Source: a virus. Taken from it: a DNA stretch of 25,267 bases. The notes under the pieces are model-generated. The model made no database searches and was not told the origin of the DNA. It worked only from the letters and a program-made list of their open reading frames with translations. The DNA lies in IMG/VR virus record IMGVR_UViG_3300030090_002542, positions 1-25,267 of that record; one strand, written 5' to 3'. Shown one piece after another: positions 8,812 through 24,729 of the stretch. Position 1 is the stretch's first letter; every line of letters begins with the position of its first letter. A program made the position numbers and the translations under genes.

Positions 8812-11800
8812 ATGGCAGTAATTTATCAAAAGGATAAGAACGCTATTAGGTGCATAACTGAGTTTTACTCACAGTTTACAAAGCACAAGCTTTCTGAATA
8901 TGAAATAGACAGTATATTAGCTCAATATGACGGGGACTATGAGCAGATGATTAAAGATGCTTACGCACAGTTTTCTAAACACACACCCACTCAAAAAGAA
9001 ATTACCTCTATAATAAACCATTATGGTTTAAAAAAAAAAGACTCGGCAGATTCTACATCAGATTCGGAAGGTGGTACATCGGATTTATCAAAAACGAAAA
9101 CAGACCTTAATTTAAGCACAGAAAAAGAATTAACAAAAGGGTTAGAGGGTGCTAAACCAGGAACTTCAGCTACTTTTAATTTTAAAGATAAAAAGTCACG
9201 AATTTTTGAAGGAAGGCAAAGTTACCCTGTAGATGTTTATGCTGATGGAAAGTATGTAGGTGTTTTAAATCCTGGAGAGACAATAAATACCCCCCCATCA
9301 TCAGTTGTAGTAGAGTTACCTACGGGTAAAAAACCATTTAAAGCTCAAGAGGGTGCTATAGTTCCTCAAACCCAACAAGAAGAGGAAGAGTATAATCCAC
9401 AATCAGTTACTAAAGAAGAGGAAATAAAGGAAGATGATAATATAATAGAGCCAACTAAAAAAGTAGAAGGGCCGCCAGTAGTAGAAGAAATACCAGAAGA
9501 TTTTTGGGTTATTAGTCGTGCTGATGGTTCTATATTTAAAAATGGAAATAAGGTAAATGATAATGATGTTCCTGAAAACATAAGAACAAACTTAATAAAA
9601 GACGCTTTAAATAATAATCAAGAAAAAAGAGAAGAGTCTTTAAAGAAAGAACTAGACGACAATTTAAATATACTTTCAGGTTTTTATAGTGCACCAAACT
9701 CTTATCAAGAAGATGAGGATGGTAATAGGCTTTATGATTTTTTTATTCCAGATAATAAAGATCAAATAGAAGCTTTACAAAATGCTCTTATCAATGATTA
9801 TTCTATAGAAAAATTAGGACTTAGTGATTTAAATGAGTTTGAGATACAAAATTATAGAAATAAATTAGATAAAGCAGAAAACGAATTACCATATCTAAAG
9901 CAAAACCTTTCAAAAGAAGTTCTTTTAAAAGAATTAGAAAATAAAGATGAATTAAATGGGTTTAATAATACACCTAGAATTAATAAAGCTATAAATAATA
10001 ATATACTAGACACAAAAGGAATAACAGCTACACACAACTCGGTTAACATAAATGGTGAGCGTATATATGTTATGGGTAATCCTGCCACAATAGATGTAAA
10101 CAAACCATCTGGAACATTATATAGAGAGTCTAGGTCTGGAGATGAACAAATTAATGTATATAATATACCTACAGAAAGTATTATTTTTAATTTGGAAGAA
10201 TTTCAAGGTATACCAGTTAATGAATATGGCACACCTATTAAAAGCTCTCAAATAAGTGGTAGTGGACTAGATTCTTATAATAATCTTATAAAACTATTAA
10301 ATAAACAAAGTAGAATTAATGCAGAGAAAAAAGCGATTATAGCAGAGAATGTTGGAAAAAGAGATGATAAAGAGGCTATAGAAAGTTTAGGAGAAGGTGC
10401 GGAATACACTATTGAGCAAAGTTATTTTTATAATTTACCAGAAGAAGATCAAATTGAATATGAAGCTCTTAATGAAGAATATCACTCTTTAACAGATCAA
10501 ATTAAAAAATTAACTTTAGATGTTAAAAATAATATAAATGAAACAAATGTACAAAAAATAAGATCTCAAAAAGATAATCAACTTACCAGCCTATCTTATC
10601 CATCAGATAGTGGTCTTTTAGAGAGTGAAATGTTTTCAGATTTATTTTTATTCCCAGTAGATAGGTCTACATATAAACTTCGTGGTATATCAGAAATAGG
10701 TTTAGGTACTGATGAACAAGAGGTTAATGTAATGAATATACTTCCAACATATAAAGATGAGACTTATGGATTTGACCTAACACTACCTGGTGCCGAAGAC
10801 GCTTTAAAAGAAATACAAATGGAAATGTTGTATGATGCGGGTGGTTTATTTACAGCTCCTAATTTAGTTTATGAGGGAAATAGAAATCTTATTTTAAAAA
10901 ATGTTGATTGGGCTAAAAAATATGGTTATGGAGATTTGTTTGAACAAGGCGTTAATTTAAGTAGTAGAATAAAACAATATGAAAACATTAATGATGCTAT
11001 AGAAAAAGACCCTAAACTAGCTGAAGATCTTAATGCCTTTAATTACTTTTTTGAATTAAAATTATACAATAATCTTAGCTCATGGGCCCTAGTAAAAGAG
11101 GGTGAACATAGGCTAAATAAAAACGATGCTCACGTAACTTTATTTAAATATAATTATGCGTATAAAGATCTTACAAAAAAAATTGATAACATTAGTGCTC
11201 AACTTAATAATCAAGAGTTATCAAATAAAGAAAGAAAAGATTTAGAAGAACAATTTACAAACCTTAGTAATGATAGAATTACTTTAGGTAATGAAATAAA
11301 TAAACTTAGAAAAGAAAAAAAGGGAAGTATTGAGGAACTGTACAGTAAAGTCACAGGAGAGGGTCCTCAAGTGTCGCAAAATGAAGAGTACGTAAATAAC
11401 GTTCTTAAGAAAAAACAAGCCTTTGATAATGTATGGAATCAAGAGGTTCAGGTTTATGGCCAAAACACTGCTTTAAGTAAATTTCAAAACCAATTACAAG
11501 TTTTTAATGGGGTTAATTTATATTACAAACATTTATTTGATACTAAAGTGGTAAAGCTTCCTAGTGGGCAAAAAATACTACTTAGAGACCTTATAGATTT
11601 AGTTTATGCAGACACGGATAATGGGTATATAAGAAGAGCTGTGTACACAGATACGGGATCTGAAGTTGTTTGGAGCGATAAAGATGGTAAATTTATTCCT
11701 CAGTTTTCTTTAGATAATGAATATGGATATTCTTCTGACCCCAATGATATTAATAATAATCAATACTTAAGATCCCTTGAGCTTCCTGATAAAAACTTAT

Positions 11801-14800
11801 ATTATACAATAAATACAGAAAGTGGGGTGCCAGGATCTAATAGCACAAGTAGAGTCCAAAACGCAAAAGATTTAAATTTTACATACGGAGATATATATGG
11901 TGTATCTACTGAAGGAAAAACCCCAGGTTATATAGTTAAATTAGAATTAGATGAATATAACTTTGACCAAACTGGTAATCTTGCTTCTAACGCAAATGCT
12001 ATTTCAATGATGACAGGCGGAGAAACTCTTTATGAAAGAGAGGACAGGGTTTATATGTATGATGTAGCAGAAAAATTTGCACAAGGTTATAATGAAAATT
12101 GGTCTAACATGGTTTCTTTGGCTGATATAATAGCGTTTAATTATGACCCCACAGCGGCTTTAGCAGATAAATCTGAATTTGACAAAAGTGTGGACGCTTT
12201 CTTTCAAAATTTTATGAGTGGATTCGGTGACACTTTAGGTTTTTTTGGAGCAACTGTAACAGATCCTCCTGACACTGAAAGAACTGTACTACAAAAAACA
12301 GCAAACATCATGCAAACCTCTGGAGTAGAGGCTACTGAAAACGCATTAAATGCACAAGAACTTACTTTTAATGAAAAATTAGGTGGGGGAATAGGTTACA
12401 CTCTTTCTTTTATAACAGATATTTTACTAACCTATCCTATAGCTGGTTCGGGATTAACCGCAGTTGCAAGTGGGTCTAAAAAAATACCTGGTGTCAAAAA
12501 GGTTTATGATGCAATAAATAGCACTAAGATAGGTAGATTTGCTTTAAAAACCACTTATGATGGTATTCATGCGGGTGTTGCTTATGAAATGGCTGATTCA
12601 GACGTTGGTTTTGATAGAGGAATGGTAGAGGGTAGTGTAATGAGTGTTTTTAATCAGTTGTTTATGAAAGGCCCTTATGGAAGAATGCTTGTAAATTTAT
12701 ATCAAAAAAACCCAGGATTAGGAGCCGCAGGATATCATGGGACAAGAATTGGTCTTGGTGGTACAGCAGAAATAGTTGCTGAGTATGGTGGTGAGTTAAT
12801 GGCTAATTTAGATGATTTTAATGGTGATTGGGAACAGGCTTGGCTGGAAACTATAGGTAGAACAGAAGATGAAGTGGTAGAAAGATTCCTTTTAACAGCG
12901 GTTATGTGTTATGGTATGTCGGCAGGTTTTAGTGTTATGACTGGTAATATTGCAGAGGTAGAGTTAAATAACATGAAAAACACTGGTAAAAACTATAAAG
13001 GTGAAGAGTTGACTCCAAAAACCATGCAAGAAGTTGAAAGTGCTTTAGAGGTTATAAATAATTTTAAAAACAGTGAGGCTGGAGCTCATTTGAAAAATGA
13101 CCTTTCGGGTATGACTTTTGAGCAATTATTACAATCATCTCCTATGGATGTTGATTACAGTCAGATGCAGATGGATATAGAATGGTTAGATGCTACTGTA
13201 AAAAGTATGGATGATCAACGGTTTCAAAATTTTATAGAGTGGTTTAGAAAAGGTGGTGGTGGTGGACCTGGCGGTCCTCCTTCTGCTGGTGTTACCGTTA
13301 TGGATCCAGTGGCTGTTAGAGCTATGGAATTAATGTCAGAGGGCGTGTCTAGAGGTGATGCTATAAATCAAGCCTCAAGAGAGGCTAAAGAGGCTAGAGA
13401 TAAAGGTCCTCAAGATTTAACAATAAAACCATATGAATTTAATGTAGATTACACCCATGACCTTGCTATAGAAATAGGTGATACCCCTGGACAGACTGTA
13501 AGCTCGGAACATGTTTCTACACCAGGAATATCTACTGTAGACCCTACTTATTCATTAAATGGTAAAGATGTTTCTAAACAAGAAATGACTAATTTTCTTT
13601 CTGATGATAATAACAAAAGTTCTACAAATTTAAAAATAAGTATTACTGGAGATCATCAAATGCAAAATGATTTAGTTAGTTTTTTAAATTTAAAAACACC
13701 TCCACCTGGTGATGATGGCCCACCTTTAGCACCTGTTCTTGTAATAGATCCAGTGGCAGCAAGAGTAGAGCAGTTAATGTTGGAGGGCATGTCTAGATTT
13801 GACGCTATTACTCAAGCATCAAAAGAGGCTAGAGAAAAAAGAGAGGATTCTGGTGTTACAGAAATAAAACCTGAATTAGGTATGGCTCCTAGCACAGGTA
13901 GAAATATTAATATTTTTGAAGAAGAGTCTATTAGAAACTCTGCGGGATCAGAAACAAATGTTCCTGCTGGACAAAGATTATTTAACGACCCTAATCCAGG
14001 AACATCTGAATCTTCTCAAAATTATATTGTACAAAATTCTGAACAATTAGGTATTGATTATAGTAGCCCCACCCCTGTAACAAAAATAAATGAAAACAAC
14101 TCTATAGAAATAGCAGATGCTTACGATGCTATGGAAAATAATCCTAATAATCCTAGGGTTAAACAGGCTTATAATGACTTAACTAAAGAGGTTGGTATGC
14201 AATATAATCAATTAGTTAAAGATGGTATTGAGGTAGAGATGTGGGAAGGAAAAGGAGAGCCTTATGCTAATAGTGATGAGATGGTTAAGGATGTTAGGGA
14301 TAATAAACATTTATATATATTTTCTACACTAGAGGGTTATGGTGAAACCCAAATATCAGAAAAAGCTATGGAGGACAATCCTTTGTTAAAGCCAACTGAA
14401 TATACAGATGTAAATGGAAAACCACTTCTTTCTAATGATTTATTTAGAGCGGTTCATGATTATTACGGACACACAGAATTAGGTAATGGTTTTGGCCCTA
14501 TAGGTGAAGAAAACGCTTGGTTAAACCACTCTAGAATGTTTAGTCCAAACGCTAGAAGGGCTATGACTACAGAAACTAGAGGTCAAAACTCTTGGGTTAA
14601 TTTTAATAAAAACTTAAGAAATCCAGACGGAACTATTCCTAAAAAGGGCGATGATAATTATGTGTCTCCTAAAGATAGGCCGTTTGCTGATCAAAAAATA
14701 GGATTATTACCAGATCAATTTGTTTTTCAAAAACCACCTTCATTTACAACAAGCCCAGATAACACGGGTTTTAGGTTAGACTGGAAAACTGGTATTCATA

Positions 14801-17800
14801 AAGGAGTTGTTAATGGTCAAAGCGTTAGTCTTTTTGTAAACCCAGTAACTAAAGAATGGATAGACCTTTCTACAAAACAAGTGGTTGGTAAAACAAGAGG
14901 TGAGTCTATAGCTAATGTTAGGAAAATGTTAGGAGGAATGACGGGTAATATATTATCAACCCCAATAGACTTAACTACAGGATCTTCTCAAACTGCTAAA
15001 ATAATTTTAGAAGCATCAACTGGGGAGTCAACAGCTAGTCAACCTAAAGGAGACATAAAACCACCTAAAGATAAAAAATCTCTTATAGATAAAATGATAT
15101 CTAATATAGATAGCGAGCTTAATAGGTTACAAAGAAATAAAGGAAAAAGCTTTAACTCAGATATTACAATGGGTATGGGTGTGGAAGCTTGGAAGTTGTT
15201 TTTAAATACATTAAAAGCTGGACTTAAAGCGGGTCAAAAAATGAGTGTTGCATTTAATAATGCGGTTGAGTCTATTAAGGGCACAACAAAATTTAATGAA
15301 TCAGAATTAAGGAAAAAGTTTTTATTTGGTGATGACTCAGCTACTAATTATGCGGAAAGTGTATTAAAAAATGGAGTTAAAGAAAAGCAATTACAATTAG
15401 TATCATATTCTAAAAAAGAAATAGAATCTGAATTATCTAGATTAAAAGATAAAAAAGCTGATTTAGAGGCTTTAGGTATTGATTTTAACAACCCTAGTGG
15501 TGATTATGAAATTTCAAAATCAGAATACTATAACTTTATTAATAGTGAAATAAAAAGATTTGAAAAGCTTTTAAAAGAAAAAGGAGGTGTAAAAGAAATA
15601 AAACCTGAAGGATTTTTAATAGATGTAGTAACTGGAGAAAGGGTTGATATAGGTCCCCCTTCTAATAATATTACAAATAAAGAATTTAACACAGCTTTAG
15701 AAGAAAGGTTTCCAGGAGAATATACCAATAAAGAGTCTAATGAGCTATACGAAATAGCTAATAATAAATTAAGTCCTATTATGTCAAGGGGGGATTATAA
15801 TAACTCTGAATGGGAATTAGTTAAAAGTGCTATAGAAAAAGTAAGTGTTGGTAGAACAGATCCAACTTTAGTACCACTGGAGATAGTGATTGATGGTGAC
15901 GGTAAGGCGGTTATAAACACGAAAGGAAAGGTTCTTTTTAAAACATATAATTACGATCTTAGCGAAAGCCCAGCTTTAAAAGGAATGAGCGAAGAGCAGA
16001 AGATTGATGTCTCTTCAGATAGAATGGTTCAAGAGTTTAATCAAAATAAGGGTATTACTGAAAGTAGTTTTGGTTGGTATAGTAAAACAAAAGATCTTAT
16101 ACAAAAAAAGTTTGGATCTAATTCTAATTTATTTATTGAATTATTAGGAGTTACTTCACCACAATCAACACCAAAAGCTAATTTTCAAAAAGCCACAGAA
16201 GCTATAGAAATGTATAGCCAAGGTTATTTTGATCAAGCTTTAGAATCTTATAATACAGATGTTCAAAATATAACACAACAGTTTGAGACGGGTGTTTTTG
16301 GTAATCCAGACCTAGTAAAAACTAAAGATATATTTATAAGTAAAATTAAACAAGCTTCCGAAAACTCTGGTATAAGAAAGTCAAACGGAATGATGTTTGG
16401 TATAACTGGAACAACGGGTGCTATAACAAGGGTTTTGTATGGAAACTGGATGAATATGCAACCAGGGCCTAAAACTAAACAATTTACAGAAAATCTTTCT
16501 GGAAGAAATAGAAGAGCTACCATAGATGTCTGGGCAGGTAGAAACCTTAGAAGATTATTATACCAAGACTCAGGTACTCCTTGGAGATTTAGTTCTTCAC
16601 AGGAAAATGGGGTTAGTGCTAAAGATTTTGCGTTTGCTCAAAGTGTCTATCAAAAAGCTGCTGAAAAATTAGGAATAGAAAACGCAGAGGATTTACAAGC
16701 TGCTATGTGGTTTATAGAAAAAGATACTTGGTTTAAGAACCAATGGGACTCTAGTAAATCTGGTTTTGAAAAATCCACAATGGAAGAACAGGTTATTGCA
16801 GCTCAGGCTACAGAAAGGTTAATGGTTGGTGTTACAGCTTACATAGGTAACTTAACGGAACAACAACAAACTAGAATGAATAACCTTATAGCAGATGCCA
16901 TCGCTGACGCTCAAGCTAAAGGTTTACCTGAAATGGAAATAGAGGCTATGATGATTGATAAGCTTAATGGAGAAGTTAGGTTAGATCAGGCTATAAATGA
17001 TCTTAATGAAGCTATATTAAAAATAAATCCTTTAGCGGGTAAAGCTTCTGTGTCAGAGGGTATGTATATGGGTCAAGCTGAGCCAAATATAGATGCCGAG
17101 ATTGTTTTTGGTAAAGACGCAGATATTTCAGGAGTTGTGGATCAGGTTATAAAAATAGGATCTAATAATAATCAGAACGAAGTTTTTGTTTCCAAAACAA
17201 CAGATTCTTCTCATCCAAACGCAAGACCTTTTACTAGAATAGAATTTAACAACCCTGTCAACGAAACTGAATTACAAGATATTTCAAATGCACTTCGTAA
17301 CAATGAAATAGATGGGTTCTCTATTCACAAAAATCAACAAGGTGAAACTATAGGTTTATCATTTCAATTTATACCAGAGTTTTTAATGGAAGATGGTTTA
17401 ACTATAGATAATGTAAAAGAGTTTGAAGAAAAATATTTAAATAATACAGCCTCGGCTTTGGCGGAAATTAAAGCTACCTTTGGTGAGGGTATTTTTAACA
17501 CCATAGAAAAAGGACATGTTAACACTAAAATTTTTACAAATGGCGAATACGAAACAATTACATCAGAAGAAAAGTCGTTTAAGACTGACATCAAAACAGA
17601 GCTTACCAGAAAACAAAGAACGGCTGACTATGGGGACAGTTCCAAGGATATCATCGATAAACGAACAGGAGATGCACTTAATGAGCGAGGCATTCAAAGA
17701 TTTCAAATCTTAATTGATTTCGCTAAACAGCTTAAAAAACTACGTGAAGACTTAGGTAACAGGCTATACAACGATCCGTTTATGATAACGCCAGTTGTTA

Positions 17801-20800
17801 AAGCTGGGTTATTTGTAATGGAAAAAACCCTTAGAGCCACTAATAATGTTTTAGCGTCTATAGATGCTGGTATAAATTATATTAAGGCTAACTCAAAAAA
17901 AGGTGATGTTTTTGATAAATCTGTTGAAGACAAAATAAGAACTTTTTTTCAAAATCACGTAGACGATATAGTAAACCCTGAAGGACTTTCAGAGTTTGGA
18001 ATGTCTGCTAATAAGGATGGTACTTTAGATATGACTGAAGAAGAGTCTCATCAAGAAAATATTAATGAGGATATTGTAAATGAATCTGTTAAAAATGAAA
18101 AACCTAAATCAAAAAATATAGGGCCTGAAAGAAAGTATACAGAACAAGAAATTTTAGATATAGAAAAATCTATAAAAGATAAACATGATGCTGATATTTC
18201 TGGTAACAAAAAAAAGGGTTTTGCTAGATTATTAGAATTTGCAAAGGGCGAAAAGTTTATGGTGGGAACGGTTGAATCTAAATATGTCATTAGAAAGAGA
18301 ATAAGAAGTATGGCTAAAGAGTACAATCTTTCAGAAAGCGATATGATGGTTTTAGTAGAAATGACACTACAACTTCAAGCACCAGGTGCCGCTAAAGAAT
18401 ATGCTAAAGATGTTGAAAATCGTATATGGAGAGATGAGGAAAATAGGGTATACCCTATACATAAATATGGCTATCTTGGTGGACTTATTACTAGAACGGG
18501 AAAAGCTTTAACTAAGGAACAAATAAAAGATATTGGTTTCGTAAATATGTTATACAGAGTAATTCAACTAGATCAATTATCAGATCAAAACAAATCTGTT
18601 GCTGACGCTGTTATAACAGAGATAAATAAAACTACTGACAAAAAACAAATTAAATCTTTAGAAAAAGAATTAGATAAGTTGATAGATAAAATGGGTGTTA
18701 AAGATAAAATGTCATATGTTGTTGAAAATGGTCAATATAAATTAGTTGCTAAAGATTCTGATGGAGAAACTGTTGATGTTCCTTCTGGCTCTAATTATGC
18801 TGGAGAAAAATTTCATAGAAGAAAACATCCTAAAATTCCAAATCTTTCTATTGATAATGAAACGAGTCATGGTATGACTAAAGAGTGGGCGGAAGAAATA
18901 ATTAAAACTAAAGAAAATACTGATCCAGGATGGGAGCTCACTAAAAGAAAGAGTGATCAATTATTTGATGAGTATAAAAAAATATTAAAATCCGAGTTTG
19001 ATGAGGGTCTTATTGATCCTAATGTTTATGAGGAAATAAAAGATATAAACTATAATCCTAGATTATTTATAGATCATTTATTATTTGCGGAGACCAATGT
19101 TCATAGAACTAGAAAGGCAGACTCCCCTATGGTAGATAATTTAGATGGTCCTTTAAAAAAGTTATCACATGGTAGTGATGAGATATTGTATATGGACCCA
19201 GTAAGACTTTTACAAATGCGTATAGCATCTTCTTATAAAATAAGATTTGAAAACAGATCTAGAAAAAAATTAGCTGATTTTATTAAGTTAATAGAGGAGG
19301 TAGAGACTGGTAAGAGTCCTGTAAAAACCAAAAGTTTATTCAATATATTTGGGTCTATAGATGGTAAGGTTAATAAAGTTAAAGATGTTATTGGTTACAC
19401 CATTACACCAGAGTCACCTATCGATACGCAAAATTATGTGGAGATGAGTTATTATGAAGGTGGTAAAAAAATAAAATTTGCTGTTTTAAAATCTGTTTAC
19501 AAAAGCTTTAATAATGGGCCTAAAAGTAATTACAATAGGCCTTGGGTACAAGCTTCTAGAAACCTTGCGTTTCCTAGACTTTTTTCTACAACAATAAAAA
19601 CGGGTGCAACTGGTTTCGCTGCTCCTAAATTCTTTTTAAAAAACATGCCTTTAGATTATTTGCAACAAGTTTTCTTTACAAAAACGTATTATGGAAATCC
19701 TGTTACAAAATATTTTCTTCCAGCTAGAATGGGTTTAGCTACTTATGATTGGTTGAGTGTGGCAAAAGATGCGGCTTTTGATGGGCCTTTATGGAAAGAG
19801 TTTTCTGAACTAGGTGGTAGCTTAGATTTTTATTACACTTATTCTAGAAGAGGTGGTTACGGAGATCTTCTTCAGGAGAGTAAAGATATGGTAACAAAAA
19901 GAATAGAAGATATAATGGCTAAAAACCCGAACATATCAGAAGCTGATGCAGTTCAACAAGCTTTAAAAGAAGAGGCTGCGGGTAAATTACCAGGCATGGA
20001 TACACCATTTTCAAATCCTGTAGACAGGGGGTCATGGGAATCTACTAAAAGGTTTTTAGGTTTTATGAATCAATTTTCTGAGAAAATGGGACGTTTAGCC
20101 GCTTATAAAAGAAATTTAGCTAGATATGAAAAAAGATATAAAAAACAAAACGGAGGTAAGGAACCAACAGGTGATGACCTTATAAATTTAAAAAAACAAG
20201 CCGTTAGAGCATCTGTAAACACAGCAAACTTTAATAAAGGGGGTGATGCTGTAAAAGCTTTAGATCATGCTGGCTTTCCTTATTTGAACGCTGGGTGGCA
20301 AACTATGTATAAGCCCGCTAAGCATATATCTCAAAACCCCGTTAATTTTACCCATGACATGGTTCAACTGGGTATGATGTTTGGGGCTGGTTTAATGGCC
20401 GCTAATTTAATGTTATACAAATGGGTTGGGGAAGAAGATGAGGATAAGTTAAGGGGCCTTTTAGAAAAAGCTAGAGATGAGGGTAATAAAGATGAGATAG
20501 AAAGATTAGAGATGTTATTACAAGAGAGTATAGAATATCAGTATGATAAAATACCAGATTATGTTTTAGATAAATACTTTGTTTACCTAACTGGTTATTA
20601 CGATGATGAAGGAAACCCTCAATATATTAAAATACGTAAACCAGAAATAATTGGTTTTGTCTCCACTCTTTTTGAAGATTATGCTTACAATAGAATAACA
20701 GGAAAAAGGTTAGGTAGGGGTGTTCGTAATTCTTTATGGGAAGCCTTACCTTTTGTTCCTGAATATTTTTTTGATCAAGGTGTTTATTTAAGAAGGTTTA

Positions 20801-21828
20801 AAAACGCACTTCCTCCTGGTTTAGGTAGTATTGAAGATTTTATTACATCATATCCAGCTATAAATTTAGTATTAAAATGGGCAGCTAATTATGACGCTTT
20901 TAAAAATAGAAGAATATATATGGATGAAAGAATTATAGAAGGCCATAATCAAGTTGAAAAACTTAGTGATAAGAAAGATGTTATACTAAGAGATCTTAGT
21001 GAATATGTTACTGGTTGGGATGTTATTAAAACTAAAGAGATACTAGGATCTATATTTACTAATTTAGATAATAATTTTATATATCAATTTTTTGATGCAA
21101 CATATAAAATAAGTAAAGGTTTAAGTAAAGAAGAAAGGCTTGAGTTTGATAATGTTGTACAAAGGTATATTAATGATATAGGTAAAGTTATTGGTGGAGA
21201 TGATTTTGTAAGTTATAAAGTTAGTGACAAAAAAAGTGAGTCACAAAGAAGGGCTGATGAAATAATTAAAAATAAAAAAAATCAAGTAGCTATAAGGCAA
21301 AAGTCAGTTAAAGAGGCTTTAGATTTTTATGAGTATAAAATTGTAGAAAAAGAAGGAGAGAAATACTTTTTTAATTCAAGAACAAATCAAGAAATACCGT
21401 TAAATTTAAGTGTGGGTGAGATCATGAATTTTATAGAAAAAGATGTAATTGATATGGCTAAAAGAACATTTGTTGATTCGATGGGCCTCAGTGAAGAGGA
21501 TTTATTAGATGAAGAGTTTGATATTCAAACAGAAAAATATATTAAAAAAGAAATTCAAAAAATAATAAATTACGAGTTGGGTATAGAAAGAGTTAGTCCT
21601 CAGTTGGAAGATATTTATGAAATGTTTGAAAAACGAGGAGAGCATGAGGCTGCTGCTTATCTTCTTCATCAAGAGTGGAAAAAATATAACGAGTTAAAAG
21701 GAGAAGGATTTCCTGAAGAATTATGGAAAGAGATTAATGATCTTCGTGCTAAATGGATATTAGAGAATGATGACTTTGAAAAATATTGGAATGAGTTGAT
21801 GGAAGAGTACATGGAAGAAAAACAATAA
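8812..21828 (+). CDS. Giant phage large polyvalent protein (4338 aa) with DUF7178-like and LPD38-like regions
   Basis: This is an uninterrupted mosaic gene. Residues 19-72 hold two related helical units (QFTKH and QFSKH, 32 residues apart). Hydrophobic helices lie near 1191-1222 and 1355-1382. A GGGGGPGGPP linker near 1481 introduces a motif at 1495-1530 that is repeated at 1643-1678. Residues 1744-1935 contain HDYYGH (1882-1887) and TETRGQNSW (1920-1928). A coiled coil lies near 2185-2260. Residues about 2414-2645 (TSPQSTPKANF, TIDVWAGR, AAMWFIEKDTW) resemble DUF7178, and about 2760-2900 (NARPFTRIEF) a module often found next to it. Residues about 3577-4110 (SRNLAFP, MNQFSEKMGRLAAY, NTANFNKGG) resemble LPD38. 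The C-terminus is charged and helical. Such proteins, from knowledge of the class, are often virion-packaged and injected, with several effector or structural domains. No DxDGD-type polymerase motif is visible. Function as a whole is inference. Confidence 0.75.
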   Translation: MAVIYQKDKNAIRCITEFYSQFTKHKLSEYEIDSILAQYDGDYEQMIKDAYAQFSKHTPTQKEITSIINHYGLKKKDSADSTSDSEGGTSDLSKTKTDLNLSTEKELTKGLEGAKPGTSATFNFKDKKSRIFEGRQSYPVDVYADGKYVGVLNPGETINTPPSSVVVELPTGKKPFKAQEGAIVPQTQQEEEEYNPQSVTKEEEIKEDDNIIEPTKKVEGPPVVEEIPEDFWVISRADGSIFKNGNKVNDNDVPENIRTNLIKDALNNNQEKREESLKKELDDNLNILSGFYSAPNSYQEDEDGNRLYDFFIPDNKDQIEALQNALINDYSIEKLGLSDLNEFEIQNYRNKLDKAENELPYLKQNLSKEVLLKELENKDELNGFNNTPRINKAINNNILDTKGITATHNSVNINGERIYVMGNPATIDVNKPSGTLYRESRSGDEQINVYNIPTESIIFNLEEFQGIPVNEYGTPIKSSQISGSGLDSYNNLIKLLNKQSRINAEKKAIIAENVGKRDDKEAIESLGEGAEYTIEQSYFYNLPEEDQIEYEALNEEYHSLTDQIKKLTLDVKNNINETNVQKIRSQKDNQLTSLSYPSDSGLLESEMFSDLFLFPVDRSTYKLRGISEIGLGTDEQEVNVMNILPTYKDETYGFDLTLPGAEDALKEIQMEMLYDAGGLFTAPNLVYEGNRNLILKNVDWAKKYGYGDLFEQGVNLSSRIKQYENINDAIEKDPKLAEDLNAFNYFFELKLYNNLSSWALVKEGEHRLNKNDAHVTLFKYNYAYKDLTKKIDNISAQLNNQELSNKERKDLEEQFTNLSNDRITLGNEINKLRKEKKGSIEELYSKVTGEGPQVSQNEEYVNNVLKKKQAFDNVWNQEVQVYGQNTALSKFQNQLQVFNGVNLYYKHLFDTKVVKLPSGQKILLRDLIDLVYADTDNGYIRRAVYTDTGSEVVWSDKDGKFIPQFSLDNEYGYSSDPNDINNNQYLRSLELPDKNLYYTINTESGVPGSNSTSRVQNAKDLNFTYGDIYGVSTEGKTPGYIVKLELDEYNFDQTGNLASNANAISMMTGGETLYEREDRVYMYDVAEKFAQGYNENWSNMVSLADIIAFNYDPTAALADKSEFDKSVDAFFQNFMSGFGDTLGFFGATVTDPPDTERTVLQKTANIMQTSGVEATENALNAQELTFNEKLGGGIGYTLSFITDILLTYPIAGSGLTAVASGSKKIPGVKKVYDAINSTKIGRFALKTTYDGIHAGVAYEMADSDVGFDRGMVEGSVMSVFNQLFMKGPYGRMLVNLYQKNPGLGAAGYHGTRIGLGGTAEIVAEYGGELMANLDDFNGDWEQAWLETIGRTEDEVVERFLLTAVMCYGMSAGFSVMTGNIAEVELNNMKNTGKNYKGEELTPKTMQEVESALEVINNFKNSEAGAHLKNDLSGMTFEQLLQSSPMDVDYSQMQMDIEWLDATVKSMDDQRFQNFIEWFRKGGGGGPGGPPSAGVTVMDPVAVRAMELMSEGVSRGDAINQASREAKEARDKGPQDLTIKPYEFNVDYTHDLAIEIGDTPGQTVSSEHVSTPGISTVDPTYSLNGKDVSKQEMTNFLSDDNNKSSTNLKISITGDHQMQNDLVSFLNLKTPPPGDDGPPLAPVLVIDPVAARVEQLMLEGMSRFDAITQASKEAREKREDSGVTEIKPELGMAPSTGRNINIFEEESIRNSAGSETNVPAGQRLFNDPNPGTSESSQNYIVQNSEQLGIDYSSPTPVTKINENNSIEIADAYDAMENNPNNPRVKQAYNDLTKEVGMQYNQLVKDGIEVEMWEGKGEPYANSDEMVKDVRDNKHLYIFSTLEGYGETQISEKAMEDNPLLKPTEYTDVNGKPLLSNDLFRAVHDYYGHTELGNGFGPIGEENAWLNHSRMFSPNARRAMTTETRGQNSWVNFNKNLRNPDGTIPKKGDDNYVSPKDRPFADQKIGLLPDQFVFQKPPSFTTSPDNTGFRLDWKTGIHKGVVNGQSVSLFVNPVTKEWIDLSTKQVVGKTRGESIANVRKMLGGMTGNILSTPIDLTTGSSQTAKIILEASTGESTASQPKGDIKPPKDKKSLIDKMISNIDSELNRLQRNKGKSFNSDITMGMGVEAWKLFLNTLKAGLKAGQKMSVAFNNAVESIKGTTKFNESELRKKFLFGDDSATNYAESVLKNGVKEKQLQLVSYSKKEIESELSRLKDKKADLEALGIDFNNPSGDYEISKSEYYNFINSEIKRFEKLLKEKGGVKEIKPEGFLIDVVTGERVDIGPPSNNITNKEFNTALEERFPGEYTNKESNELYEIANNKLSPIMSRGDYNNSEWELVKSAIEKVSVGRTDPTLVPLEIVIDGDGKAVINTKGKVLFKTYNYDLSESPALKGMSEEQKIDVSSDRMVQEFNQNKGITESSFGWYSKTKDLIQKKFGSNSNLFIELLGVTSPQSTPKANFQKATEAIEMYSQGYFDQALESYNTDVQNITQQFETGVFGNPDLVKTKDIFISKIKQASENSGIRKSNGMMFGITGTTGAITRVLYGNWMNMQPGPKTKQFTENLSGRNRRATIDVWAGRNLRRLLYQDSGTPWRFSSSQENGVSAKDFAFAQSVYQKAAEKLGIENAEDLQAAMWFIEKDTWFKNQWDSSKSGFEKSTMEEQVIAAQATERLMVGVTAYIGNLTEQQQTRMNNLIADAIADAQAKGLPEMEIEAMMIDKLNGEVRLDQAINDLNEAILKINPLAGKASVSEGMYMGQAEPNIDAEIVFGKDADISGVVDQVIKIGSNNNQNEVFVSKTTDSSHPNARPFTRIEFNNPVNETELQDISNALRNNEIDGFSIHKNQQGETIGLSFQFIPEFLMEDGLTIDNVKEFEEKYLNNTASALAEIKATFGEGIFNTIEKGHVNTKIFTNGEYETITSEEKSFKTDIKTELTRKQRTADYGDSSKDIIDKRTGDALNERGIQRFQILIDFAKQLKKLREDLGNRLYNDPFMITPVVKAGLFVMEKTLRATNNVLASIDAGINYIKANSKKGDVFDKSVEDKIRTFFQNHVDDIVNPEGLSEFGMSANKDGTLDMTEEESHQENINEDIVNESVKNEKPKSKNIGPERKYTEQEILDIEKSIKDKHDADISGNKKKGFARLLEFAKGEKFMVGTVESKYVIRKRIRSMAKEYNLSESDMMVLVEMTLQLQAPGAAKEYAKDVENRIWRDEENRVYPIHKYGYLGGLITRTGKALTKEQIKDIGFVNMLYRVIQLDQLSDQNKSVADAVITEINKTTDKKQIKSLEKELDKLIDKMGVKDKMSYVVENGQYKLVAKDSDGETVDVPSGSNYAGEKFHRRKHPKIPNLSIDNETSHGMTKEWAEEIIKTKENTDPGWELTKRKSDQLFDEYKKILKSEFDEGLIDPNVYEEIKDINYNPRLFIDHLLFAETNVHRTRKADSPMVDNLDGPLKKLSHGSDEILYMDPVRLLQMRIASSYKIRFENRSRKKLADFIKLIEEVETGKSPVKTKSLFNIFGSIDGKVNKVKDVIGYTITPESPIDTQNYVEMSYYEGGKKIKFAVLKSVYKSFNNGPKSNYNRPWVQASRNLAFPRLFSTTIKTGATGFAAPKFFLKNMPLDYLQQVFFTKTYYGNPVTKYFLPARMGLATYDWLSVAKDAAFDGPLWKEFSELGGSLDFYYTYSRRGGYGDLLQESKDMVTKRIEDIMAKNPNISEADAVQQALKEEAAGKLPGMDTPFSNPVDRGSWESTKRFLGFMNQFSEKMGRLAAYKRNLARYEKRYKKQNGGKEPTGDDLINLKKQAVRASVNTANFNKGGDAVKALDHAGFPYLNAGWQTMYKPAKHISQNPVNFTHDMVQLGMMFGAGLMAANLMLYKWVGEEDEDKLRGLLEKARDEGNKDEIERLEMLLQESIEYQYDKIPDYVLDKYFVYLTGYYDDEGNPQYIKIRKPEIIGFVSTLFEDYAYNRITGKRLGRGVRNSLWEALPFVPEYFFDQGVYLRRFKNALPPGLGSIEDFITSYPAINLVLKWAANYDAFKNRRIYMDERIIEGHNQVEKLSDKKDVILRDLSEYVTGWDVIKTKEILGSIFTNLDNNFIYQFFDATYKISKGLSKEERLEFDNVVQRYINDIGKVIGGDDFVSYKVSDKKSESQRRADEIIKNKKNQVAIRQKSVKEALDFYEYKIVEKEGEKYFFNSRTNQEIPLNLSVGEIMNFIEKDVIDMAKRTFVDSMGLSEEDLLDEEFDIQTEKYIKKEIQKIINYELGIERVSPQLEDIYEMFEKRGEHEAAAYLLHQEWKKYNELKGEGFPEELWKEINDLRAKWILENDDFEKYWNELMEEYMEEKQ
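13294..13845 (+). repeat. Duplicated 36-residue motif inside the giant gene
   Basis: Two in-frame copies, near 13294-13401 and 13738-13845, encode DPVA..R....LM.EG.SR followed by DAI.QAS.EA. Each copy comes just after a Gly/Pro-rich linker (GGPPSAG and PPGDDGPPLAP). The DNA is also visibly similar (both contain GATCCAGTGGC and GAGGCTA). This is an internal duplication of a short helical motif together with its linker, probably an inter-domain tether. Confidence 0.75.
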
Positions 21829-21877: not shown

Positions 21878-22939
21878 ATGAAAAAATTTATAATAATATT
21901 ATTAGTATTACTAATATCATGTGCTGTGCCAAAAAAATGTTGTGCACAAATAGAGGATTTTTTTAAATATTCTACTTTTTACACTTCAGTAACAGTTGGC
22001 ACTCCTTTTACAGAAAGGGAAGATTATATAGCGGTAGACAAGGGTTATGAGGATGTAACGTGGGTCTCTCCTTATGATTATAATTTAACTATAGGGCTCA
22101 GAAAAATAGCAAGATTTGATTATGAAACAAAACGCCAAACATGGTATTATGGTACTGAAAGAAATACTGCGGACAACGTTACTATTGGTAACGCTAATGG
22201 TTGGGAGTATCTTTTTAATTATTCTTTTATACGCAATAGGGGTGATAAGTTTACTGAGCAAAATTTCTGGCTTAGATACCTTGGAAATAAATTCGTTGTC
22301 AAAGCACAATACACAGACAACCAAAGAGTAGGTTTAAAGTACACCTCTTTAGATTATAGGTTTAGATTAAATAAAGGTAATTGGGATCTAACTATTGGTA
22401 GTACATTCAGAGTTCATCCAGTATACGGGATAAATCCTATTGAAGATTTTTGGGTACCTGGAGAATCTACATTTCAAGATTTAGCAGAAGACTTTGGTTA
22501 TGCTTCAGAACAGTGGGTACAAGGTTTTTATGTAGATCAAAACTGGTATGACGTTAGTAGCGGTGATTCTATATTGATTGCTACGTCAAATGATGAATTT
22601 TATAATTGGTGGTTTGGTGATGCTGTCGCTAGATTTAATGAGCAGGAATTAGATAAGTTAGGTTTACAAAAAGAAATTAGTGCTGTAATAGGATTAGCTT
22701 ATTATAAGTACACACCAACAACATGGATTCATGGTTGGTTTAATTGTTTACCATATCACTATGGATTAGATGAATATTCTTATGAGTACGATGGGGATAA
22801 TATAGAGTGGGACGCTGGCTTAGTGTTTGGAACTAGAATAACTAAAAACTTAGGTTTATTTGTAGAGGGTACTCACATGAGGTATTGGGGTAAAGAGATT
22901 TACGAAGTAAAGTTTGGGTTTAACTATTTAATATTTTAA
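21878..22939 (+). CDS. Signal-peptide-bearing outer-membrane beta-barrel candidate (353 aa)
   Basis: Residues 1-24 form a signal peptide: MKK, a long Ile/Leu/Val core, then a boundary ending CCAQ. LISC at 12-15 also fits a lipobox, so lipoprotein processing is possible. The mature part alternates polar and hydrophobic residues with many Tyr, Trp and Phe (for example YNLTIGLRKI, FVVKAQYTD, GLKYTSLDYRFRL, AGLVFGTRI, LFVEGTHMRYW). It ends in FGFNYLIF, with the C-terminal phenylalanine typical of barrels recognised by the BAM machinery. I infer a beta-barrel in the host outer membrane; I do not recognise a specific family. It is the first gene behind the promoter at 21840-21873, and the next gene begins 2 bases after its stop. 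The low-GC coding style matches its neighbours. Possible roles are receptor masking, superinfection exclusion or help in outer-membrane breakage. A secreted beta-sandwich is the alternative. Confidence 0.65.
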   Translation: MKKFIIILLVLLISCAVPKKCCAQIEDFFKYSTFYTSVTVGTPFTEREDYIAVDKGYEDVTWVSPYDYNLTIGLRKIARFDYETKRQTWYYGTERNTADNVTIGNANGWEYLFNYSFIRNRGDKFTEQNFWLRYLGNKFVVKAQYTDNQRVGLKYTSLDYRFRLNKGNWDLTIGSTFRVHPVYGINPIEDFWVPGESTFQDLAEDFGYASEQWVQGFYVDQNWYDVSSGDSILIATSNDEFYNWWFGDAVARFNEQELDKLGLQKEISAVIGLAYYKYTPTTWIHGWFNCLPYHYGLDEYSYEYDGDNIEWDAGLVFGTRITKNLGLFVEGTHMRYWGKEIYEVKFGFNYLIF

Positions 22940-22941
22940 TT

Positions 22942-23685
22942 ATGAAGAAATACATTATAATACTATTTGCATTTATAAGTTCGTTTTCTTATTCGCAATT
23001 TGATTTTCAACAATTATGTTTACAATGTGCTGAGGCAGAAGGTTTTTATTGTGGAGATGATCCAGCAAACTGGACTCAATACTCACCAAATGGATGTGTA
23101 CAAACATCTTGGATTAACGATGGGTGGGTCGATTGTGTGGATGCCAGCGATGAGGGAGAGGATGTAGTGCCAACATTACCTTTAGATTGTATACCACCCC
23201 CACCACTTTGTGATACTGTATATGTAGATGTACCAGTTTATATATATGAAACTATTTTCCAAACAGACACTATTTATAACACAGAGTATATTACACAAAT
23301 AGTTTTTGACACCATAGTAGAGATTGAATACGAAACTATATTTGAAGAGATATTTGTTACAGATACTTTATATATGGAAGGAGCCTTAGATACTTTATTT
23401 GTAGATGTTATTGAGTATGTAGATGTATTTGTGTTTGACACAATAGTAGAGATAGAAACAGAATACATAGAATTTTTTACTACAGACACTATAATAGAGT
23501 ATGTAGAAATAATTAACACAGAATATTTAGATTGTGATACAGGGCTTCCTTGTACATCTAATATACCTGAGTTGTTAAATCAACACAAAAAAGAAAGTAA
23601 GTTATATAACTTATTGGGGCAGGCCATAAAAGAACCTAATGGAATTTACATTGAAGATGGCCAAATTAAATATGAACTTAAATAA
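22942..23685 (+). CDS. Secreted repeat protein with LDLa-like motif and T9SS-like C-terminal signal (247 aa)
   Basis: Residues 1-19 form a signal peptide with a Bacteroidetes-type end (SYSQ). The next region is Cys-rich, and residues 57-71 (WINDGWVDCVDASDE) align with the calcium-binding half of an LDL-receptor class A repeat, W.CD...DC.D.SDE. Asn59 sits where the first cysteine would be. After a PPPP hinge (85-88), residues 90-198 are beta-prone imperfect repeats built on DT(I/V/L), including DTIVEIEYE and DTIVEIETE. The final 30 residues (KLYNLLGQAIK, then GIYIEDGQIKY) resemble the end of a type A T9SS sorting domain, which normally directs export across the outer membrane and surface attachment. 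The true domain is usually longer, so this is a short or degenerate version. It lies 2 bases after the barrel candidate and probably in the same message. Function is unknown; a cell-surface role is inferred. Confidence 0.6.
   Translation: MKKYIIILFAFISSFSYSQFDFQQLCLQCAEAEGFYCGDDPANWTQYSPNGCVQTSWINDGWVDCVDASDEGEDVVPTLPLDCIPPPPLCDTVYVDVPVYIYETIFQTDTIYNTEYITQIVFDTIVEIEYETIFEEIFVTDTLYMEGALDTLFVDVIEYVDVFVFDTIVEIETEYIEFFTTDTIIEYVEIINTEYLDCDTGLPCTSNIPELLNQHKKESKLYNLLGQAIKEPNGIYIEDGQIKYELK
23269..23519 (+). repeat. Imperfect coding repeats (DT-rich) in the surface protein gene
   Basis: Short degenerate in-frame units encode DT(I/V/L) followed by alternating hydrophobic and acidic residues. The clearest pair begins near 23307 and 23437, where GACAC(C/A)ATAGTAGAGAT is shared. 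They would form an acidic beta-rich stalk between the N-terminal Cys-rich part and the C-terminal sorting-like tail. Confidence 0.6.
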
Positions 23686-23692
23686 TTATTAT

Positions 23693-23932
23693 ATGAATAT
23701 TTTTAAAGACAACAATGATTGGAACGAAAAAGCTATAGTTGGTTTTATAGCGTTCCTTATTATGTGCGTAATCATGATGGCTGATATGATTACAGGATGG
23801 GTTGGTGCAGACTTAGTTATAAACGAGTTTGTGTATGACTCATTTGTATGGATCGTACTTGGTTGTTTTGGTATTAGTGGAGTTGAAAAATTCGCTAAGA
23901 AAAATTGCGACAAAGTTTGTGACAAAAAATAA
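23693..23932 (+). CDS. Two-helix small membrane protein, holin-like (79 aa)
   Basis: The ATG at 23693 is preferred because it lies 7 bases after the preceding stop, and the protein then starts cleanly (MNIFKDNNDW). An in-frame ATG at 23639 would overlap the previous gene by 47 bases. Two hydrophobic helices are visible at about residues 14-33 and 45-64, joined by a short loop (GADLVINEF), with a Lys/Cys-rich C-terminal tail (KKNCDKVCDKK). This size, the two-helix layout and the charged tail fit class II holins, which permeabilise the inner membrane at lysis. From memory, similar small proteins recur in late regions of Bacteroidetes phages. A terminator-like hairpin follows directly. The holin call rests on topology and on the endolysin-like gene three genes downstream; an accessory membrane protein is the alternative. 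Confidence 0.6.
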   Translation: MNIFKDNNDWNEKAIVGFIAFLIMCVIMMADMITGWVGADLVINEFVYDSFVWIVLGCFGISGVEKFAKKNCDKVCDKK

Positions 23933-23986: not shown

Positions 23987-24331
23987 ATGACAAAAGAATT
24001 TTCAGAAGACAGTAAATTTAAAATAAGTATTAAAACCCTTGCTTGGATTGTAGCTGGGGTAGCTACCTTAATAGCGGGTTATTATGGAATGCTATCTAAT
24101 ATAAATTCTAAATTTGTAGAACTAGAGTCAAAAGTTGAAGAGGCTTTAGAAAAACCTAAACCAGGAACAGGAACTTATACTATAGATATGGGAGACCCTG
24201 CTGCTTCACAAACGTGGCCTCCTACAAGAATGGAGTTTAACATGAAAGATGAGATGGCTAGACAGAAAATTGATAATATTATAAAAGAGTTAGACGAACT
24301 TAAAGATGAACTTAAAGACTTAAAAAAATGA
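23987..24331 (+). CDS. Single-span membrane protein with C-terminal coiled coil (114 aa)
   Basis: A short charged N-terminus (residues 1-16) precedes one hydrophobic helix (about 18-36, including AWIVAGVATLIAGYYGML). Then come a first charged helix (about 38-56), a Pro/Gly-rich break (KPKPGTGTY), and a C-terminal coiled coil rich in Lys, Glu, Asp and Leu (about 85-113). The topology fits an inner-membrane anchor with a periplasmic coiled coil, as in i-spanins, or a virion or lysis scaffold. I recognise no named family. It starts just after the hairpin at 23951-23975. Its stop overlaps the next gene by 4 bases (ATGA), so those two are translationally coupled. The spanin-like reading is inference from topology and neighbours. 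Confidence 0.6.
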   Translation: MTKEFSEDSKFKISIKTLAWIVAGVATLIAGYYGMLSNINSKFVELESKVEEALEKPKPGTGTYTIDMGDPAASQTWPPTRMEFNMKDEMARQKIDNIIKELDELKDELKDLKK

Positions 24332-24729
24332 CAAAAAGAATAGATATTACAGGTTTTGTTTACATAATATTAATGATATTAATATTTACCTGTGGTACTG
24401 CTTTTAGTCAAGAGTTTTTATCCTCTGATAATTTTAAAAATAAAATAGCAAAAGATATTGTTGTTGTAGAATTTTGGGCTGGATGGAATGCTCAGAATGA
24501 ATTTAAAGAATTAACAAAATTAAATGATTGTATGATTTATAGAATAGATATATCAAAACATATGGATATTCAAATGAAATATGATGTATCTGCTATACCT
24601 ACAGTTATTATATTTGATAACGGAATACAAAAAGAAAAATTTGGAGCCACTGTTATGTTTCAGTTAGATGCTGATAAAAAAACTGTACAGAACTCTATAG
24701 ACACATTGTTGTTAAATAAATTTAATTAA
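24328..24729 (+). CDS. Exported thioredoxin-fold protein lacking catalytic cysteines (133 aa)
   Basis: Residues 1-27 form a signal peptide with a hydrophobic core (VYIILMILIF) and a Bacteroidetes-type end (AFSQ). The mature part follows the thioredoxin pattern. VVVEFWAGW (45-53) is the strand leading to the active site, IYRIDISKH (70-78) matches the next strand, and AIPTVIIFDNG (89-99) carries the cis-proline loop (Pro91). At the active site, where thioredoxins read WCGPC, this protein reads WNAQN (53-57), so both catalytic cysteines are asparagine and redox activity is not expected. The one other mature-region cysteine is Cys68. The gene is coupled to the coiled-coil gene by a 4-base ATGA overlap, and the endolysin-like gene starts on its last stop base. 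A binding or chaperone role in the periplasm is inferred. It cannot act like T7's thioredoxin processivity factor if it is exported. Confidence 0.75.
   Translation: MTKRIDITGFVYIILMILIFTCGTAFSQEFLSSDNFKNKIAKDIVVVEFWAGWNAQNEFKELTKLNDCMIYRIDISKHMDIQMKYDVSAIPTVIIFDNGIQKEKFGATVMFQLDADKKTVQNSIDTLLLNKFN

Follow-up and report, generated by a model that had tools for sequence, protein, structure and literature searches.

Does a phage place a protein of its own on the surface of the infected cell through the type IX secretion system (T9SS) of its host? The question is raised by a gene in a 25,267-nucleotide stretch of viral DNA (hereafter referred to as the window), which corresponds to positions 1 to 25,267 of the 33,824-base IMG/VR record IMGVR_UViG_3300030090_002542; features are given in window coordinates. 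An earlier note, made from the sequence alone, had described an ORF at 22942-23685 whose product would combine a Sec signal peptide with a C-terminal tail like a T9SS type A sorting signal. The ORF was confirmed at exactly these coordinates on the plus strand, and homologues and a family alignment support it. It encodes a predicted exported protein of 247 amino acids, hereafter the cargo protein, which starts with the signal peptide MKKYIIILFAFISSFSYSQ and ends in SKLYNLLGQAIKEPNGIYIEDGQIKYELK. From the signal peptide and the tail, we infer transport by the host T9SS.

The Sec signal peptide spans residues 1-18 (22942..22995, plus strand) and places Q19 at the predicted +1 position, in agreement with the Bacteroidota Q-rule, by which signal peptidase I cleaves with Q at +1 (PMC5837995). 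Q19 is at least 90% conserved among 56 aligned members and the signal peptide is family-wide, which upholds this part of the earlier description. Q at +1 is common to the cargo protein, the neighboring barrel protein, and a thioredoxin-like protein encoded nearby. Relatives were collected from IMG/VR as 34 loci found with the cargo protein as query and 80 found with its upstream neighbor, giving 112 distinct locus entries, some of which share a contig. Homologues range from 148 to 310 amino acids in overall length because a middle region of DTI/EYVE repeats expands and shrinks; the parts retained are the N-terminal Cys-rich domain, a DCDTGLPC motif, and the C-terminal 27 residues. In two loci (L034:5971-6686 and L100) the cargo gene is broken into two overlapping frames, as a result of a frameshift or an assembly error. 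Searches of phages and plasmids by tblastn with the cargo protein and with its tail returned no match, a search that is uninformative for a 30-amino-acid query.

The tail, YNLLGQAIKEPNGIYIEDGQIKYELK, comprises residues 221-247 (23602..23682, plus strand) and can be read as a minimal T9SS type A-like signal, with motif B (YNLLGQAI, 23605-23628), motif D (GIYI, 23641-23652), and motif E (23659-23682), all on the plus strand. It is present in all complete IMG/VR homologues (approximately 80) notwithstanding their differences in length, and motifs B, D, and E are conserved at the extreme C-terminus of every complete member. In the alignment of 56 members, G226, I237, and G240 never vary, and conservation reaches 90% or more at Y222, I229, G234, and Y236. 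Region-wise dN/dS, computed on cargo pairs that are 75-97% identical, was 0.16 for the tail, indicating purifying selection, versus 0.39 for the linker before it; the values for the Cys-rich domain and the middle region were 0.15 and 0.10, respectively. AF2 predicts the tail as a beta hairpin (pLDDT 72-78). Overlap with the following gene was considered as a cause of tail conservation and rejected because the likely start of that gene, at 23693, lies past the cargo stop codon. We found no further convincing tail-bearing protein in 29 related phage contigs.

The curated profiles do not recognize this tail. TIGR04183, the type A profile, gave no match to the window protein at E ≤ 10, and neither it nor the Pfam type A model (PF18962) matched any of the 56 family members, even at an E-value of 10. 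The two models likewise matched nothing in the 33.8-kb record as a whole, in 30 related phage records, or in two cultured relatives. TIGR04183 performed as intended on other proteins, scoring 45.4 bits for a cohesin protein of phage immuto and 52.6 bits for a Chryseobacterium plasmid protein, against a cut-off of 23. The full seven-strand Ig-like domain with its motif A (PNP) is missing from the cargo sequence, in which the structure prediction shows no more than a terminal hairpin. With 0/56 matches, the tail does not qualify as a type A domain by the curated models. The earlier description of a phage protein with a Sec signal and a type A-like tail thus stands for the signal peptide and for a likeness of the tail that emerges from tests independent of TIGR04183, and falls short where the curated model and the front half of the domain are concerned. 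The negative TIGR04183 result also favors another explanation, in which the tail is a hairpin that serves folding or assembly and the protein remains periplasmic or is bound through its tail to the adjacent barrel, as part of a lysis or envelope module that also includes the barrel, the small membrane proteins, and the thioredoxin-like protein. We regard this explanation as possible but doubtful, and evidence that bears on it is given with the comparisons below.

Thirty genuine type A tails, each scoring above the TIGR04183 cut-off, were used to build a tail HMM. We applied it to the ORFs of the phage loci, whose 1,514 distinct C-termini yielded 1,364 scores. Cargo family tails occupied ranks 1 to 25 of the 1,364. 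Family tails had a median score of 6.1 versus -0.9 bits, a comparison among related rows whose Mann-Whitney p-value is not to be taken literally; the best other C-terminus scored 7.4 bits, and the 99th percentile of shuffled tails was 6.0 bits. An hhalign comparison of the phage-tail profile with the type A profile scored above 199 of 200 column-permuted controls. The individual E-values of the HMM were weak (best, 0.0085), and the hhalign alignment covered 13 columns around motif B with a probability of 20%. These weak single scores would suit a likeness that arose by chance, or by convergent evolution of a Y-x-x-x-G ... G-x-Y-I beta hairpin, which we nevertheless consider very improbable in view of the HMM ranks, the controls given here and for Prevotella below, and the exclusively C-terminal position of the tail pattern in DNA, also described below.

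For the reverse test, we took 914 ORFs in 1.2 Mb of Prevotella sp. oral taxon 299 and searched their last 45 residues with an HMM made from the phage tails alone. Six matches were obtained at E < 0.01, compared with none among internal 45-mers and none among reversed C-termini. The best eight proteins all had signal peptides, as judged by a simple pattern, and carried tails such as VYDLSGVKVGNTNSLSNLPKGVYIVNGKKVMN. The phage-tail HMM thus also picks out C-termini of exported Bacteroidota proteins that are not related to the cargo family, which argues against a hairpin that serves only folding or assembly of the phage protein. The replicon encodes 10 proteins above the TIGR04183 cut-off and has a PorV-family match of 80 bits (cut-off, 90); a search of it for SprA/Sov was empty with a model that also matched none of the controls. 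Only two of the eight best Prevotella proteins reached TIGR04183, and weakly, from which it appears that this profile generally misses short tails. The best cellular matches to the phage tails are thus short Prevotella tails, mostly missed by TIGR04183 as well, and their use of the T9SS is putative. Comparable short tails are also known from Bacteroides species that have no T9SS, so such a tail is no proof of T9SS transport.

A degenerate DNA pattern shaped on the tail was scanned over all of IMG/VR with no positional requirement. It matched 90 stretches; ORFs could be read for 83, and 81 of these belonged to the cargo family. In all 83 (83/83), 25-30 codons separated the beginning of the match from the stop codon, i.e., the match lay at the extreme C-terminus. 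Together with residue conservation and purifying selection, this constant position bears out the claim of a C-terminal motif beyond chance. The two non-family matches are exported Bacteroidota-type proteins. One of them (L262:779-2095), encoded on a 412-kb IMG/VR contig, is an exported Peptidase_C10 in which a Spi inhibitor prodomain is combined with a short tail of the T9SS-like type. Because a terminase is encoded on the same contig, the peptidase may be phage-borne, and the contig is possibly that of a jumbo phage with a T9SS cargo of its own. The same kind of tail on this unrelated exported peptidase again speaks against retention of the cargo protein by a dedicated hairpin. A search of PDB sequences with the tail profile gave as its best full-motif match residues 656-679 of a ruminal arabinanase (RIYDLSGRLVTTPLQKGIYIRNGK; E 0.3, not significant alone). 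One DNA form of the tail with fixed B-D spacing, beginning TATAAY, matched 43 phage loci and had zero matches in 84,980 bacterial and archaeal species genomes, so no cellular protein with precisely this tail is known here. Pattern scans of genome contigs yielded 592 matches, none of which was confirmed by tblastn.

What would be displayed is a Cys-rich head on a variable stalk. The head (residues 26-92, core approximately 37-72; 23017..23217, plus strand) resembles an LDL-receptor class A (LDL-A) domain. Its core has an invariant NDGW.DC....DE, and in the family alignment C37, C52, C65, D60, D64, D70, and E71 are invariant, the four acidic residues falling at the LDL-A calcium-site positions (DGxxDCxDxSDE). 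Pfam Ldl_recept_a matched 45 of the 56 members (best E 4e-4), with the window protein itself at 15.5 bits against PF00057, under the 24.1-bit cut-off. The family head profile recovered almost exclusively LDL-A modules from the PDB (best E 0.0046), and Foldseek placed LDL-A structures in its top ranks without significance (E 0.86); the AF2 pLDDT of the head is approximately 88. The stalk of acidic DTI/EYVE beta-type repeats (residues 93-196; 23218..23529, plus strand) has a pLDDT below 50, with values below 35 over most of this middle region of the protein. It is followed by the two-cysteine motif DCDTGLPC (residues 197-204; 23530..23553, plus strand), in which D197, C198, and C204 are invariant and for which dN/dS is 0.04. 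A repeat stalk of variable length is fibre-like, and the gene lies downstream of virion protein genes; the cargo protein could accordingly be a virion fibre or adhesin with the tail as its trimerisation or attachment tip. We judge this to be highly unlikely, as a Q-rule Sec signal peptide conserved throughout the family is hard to reconcile with virion assembly in the cytoplasm, and the cultured relatives Panino and phi38:1 encode the structural module while the tail was not detected in them.

The gene directly upstream (21878..22939, plus strand) encodes a 353-amino-acid partner with a signal peptide, a predicted outer-membrane beta-barrel, and a terminal Phe. The AF2 model of the barrel has a pTM of 0.70, and the nearest structures in a fold search were Tsx, KdgM, and NanC, 12-strand-type barrels, with Z scores of 13-15. 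A possible identity as PorV or PorP/SprF drew no support: relevant NCBIfam or Pfam matches were absent, and the fold search gave other barrels. Of the 105 locus entries that are informative about the sequence beyond the barrel gene, 104 have the cargo gene next, usually after a gap of 1-4 nt. Downstream, the conserved block continues on the plus strand with a small membrane protein (23693..23932), for which the start at 23693 is likelier than that at 23639 since a 79-amino-acid relative in L003 starts at the corresponding codon, a small membrane-anchored protein (23987..24331), and an exported thioredoxin-fold protein without CxxC (24328..24729; Pfam Thioredoxin E 8e-10; EFWAGWNAQNE). The last is kept in the same block across relatives. 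The one exception to the pairing is a locus (L110:7980-11461) with a divergent barrel, 49% identical, and no cargo gene, followed by the small membrane proteins, a thioredoxin-like protein, an M15 peptidase, and a three-TM holin-like gene; this gene order suggests that the block borders lysis genes.

Such tight coupling of cargo and barrel would fit a tail that holds the protein in the periplasm or at the barrel, as would the M15 peptidase and holin-like gene close to the block in L094 and L110 and the holin-like gene further on in G000. Yet the barrel can do without the cargo, since L110 keeps it together with the small membrane proteins but has no cargo gene, and in several relatives unrelated genes stand between the cargo gene and the rest of the block. 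We retain transport by the host T9SS as the preferred reading.

The host probably belongs to a group in which this system is in use. A 1,840-amino-acid virion protein of the same record matched 87 phage records, 86 of them named for Flavobacterium (68), Cellulophaga (15), Tenacibaculum (2), or Maribacter (1) and the remaining one as Caudoviricetes only; the host of the window phage is therefore probably a member of the Flavobacteriaceae. All four are T9SS-using genera. The loci of the cargo family are presumably marine, to judge from their sample series. Upstream of the cassette, a giant protein of 4,338 amino acids (8812-21828) occupies a place that matches that of the largest structural protein of phi38:1 (gp101). 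A further small exported protein (MYYMKKTMLIAIMLGSQLFAQ...), with no Pfam match, is encoded in the opposite direction on the same record (L113:8078-8467, minus strand).

We lean toward the reading that 22942-23685 encodes a Sec-exported phage protein whose tail is read by the host T9SS. The protein would first be exported by Sec and cleaved before Q19, a step that the sequence supports well. The T9SS of the host would then recognize the last 27 residues as a stripped-down type A tail, and the LDL-A-like head and its stalk would reach the cell exterior. More speculatively, the cargo protein and the adjoining barrel, probably made from one transcript, may alter the surface of the infected cell. 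As to function, we tentatively suggest superinfection exclusion, by a block of adsorption or injection, or a masking of receptors that spares progeny from binding to debris. This suggestion rests on analogy with other phage outer-membrane proteins. In sum, many marine phages akin to those of Flavobacteriaceae have this pair of genes for exported proteins and probably re-coat infected cells by means of a host secretion machine. A bolder version, in which this is the smallest natural T9SS signal described, with a collapsed B-D linker, and the phage barrel acts as a dedicated anchor or shuttle so that the host translocon alone is borrowed, appears unlikely. If the preferred reading is true, phages of a widespread marine group remodel the surface of infected flavobacteria through a secretion system that is confined to Bacteroidota and related phyla, a natural minimal signal becomes available for asking which motifs of the C-terminal domain (CTD) the translocon reads, and the standard profile under-counts T9SS cargo of phages.

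Comparison with known systems sets the cargo family apart in several respects. Like proteins with a T9SS type A CTD (TIGR04183/PF18962), it has a Sec signal and, at the C-terminus, a motif B resembling YDLxGK, a motif D of the form GxY[IV], and a Lys-bearing motif E; it differs in a tail of 27 rather than approximately 70-80 residues that falls under the detection of the curated models, lacks the PNP/first-strand half, and has a B-D linker of 4 residues instead of at least 10. Closer in shape are the short tails of exported Prevotella proteins (e.g., ...YDLSGVKVGNTNSLSNLPKGVYIVNGKKVMN), in which the D-E end extends 12-13 residues from the motif D Gly compared with 14 in the phage; these putative T9SS signals belong to cellular proteins, and the B-D linker is longer in most of them. 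In Porphyromonas gingivalis HBP35, the last 22 residues, comprising motifs D and E, carry GFP to the surface in a PorT-dependent manner, and motif E matters for export (PMC3120885; review PMC10202324). Length should therefore, in principle, be no obstacle for a 27-residue tail that has motifs B, D, and E; in both cases the C-terminal D-E part alone would be enough, but the HBP35 signal is an experimental truncation (PMC3120885) and not a natural protein. The head shares with the LDL-A module (PF00057) its Cys pattern and the invariant DGxxDC....DE residues resembling a calcium site, and differs in its phage origin and in the score of the window protein below the Pfam cut-off. Phage-encoded T9SS cargo is already on record and the cargo protein is not the first of its kind: Cryophage has been proposed to carry such cargo, with a suggested role in competition between strains or in the control of superinfection (PMC7468147), and in gut BACON phages T9SS sorting domains have been described next to the BACON genes (PMC6949934). 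The cohesin protein of Flavobacterium phage immuto (L117:2506-3237), annotated merely as cohesin domain-containing, has a Sec signal and a full TIGR04183 tail. All three are phage genes with T9SS sorting domains, but these domains are seen by standard models and, in Cryophage, lie on variable genes, whereas the cargo proteins form a single conserved, barrel-paired family with a minimal tail. What seems new is this conserved, core-like cassette, with its minimal tail and LDL-A-like head, in approximately 100 marine phage loci.
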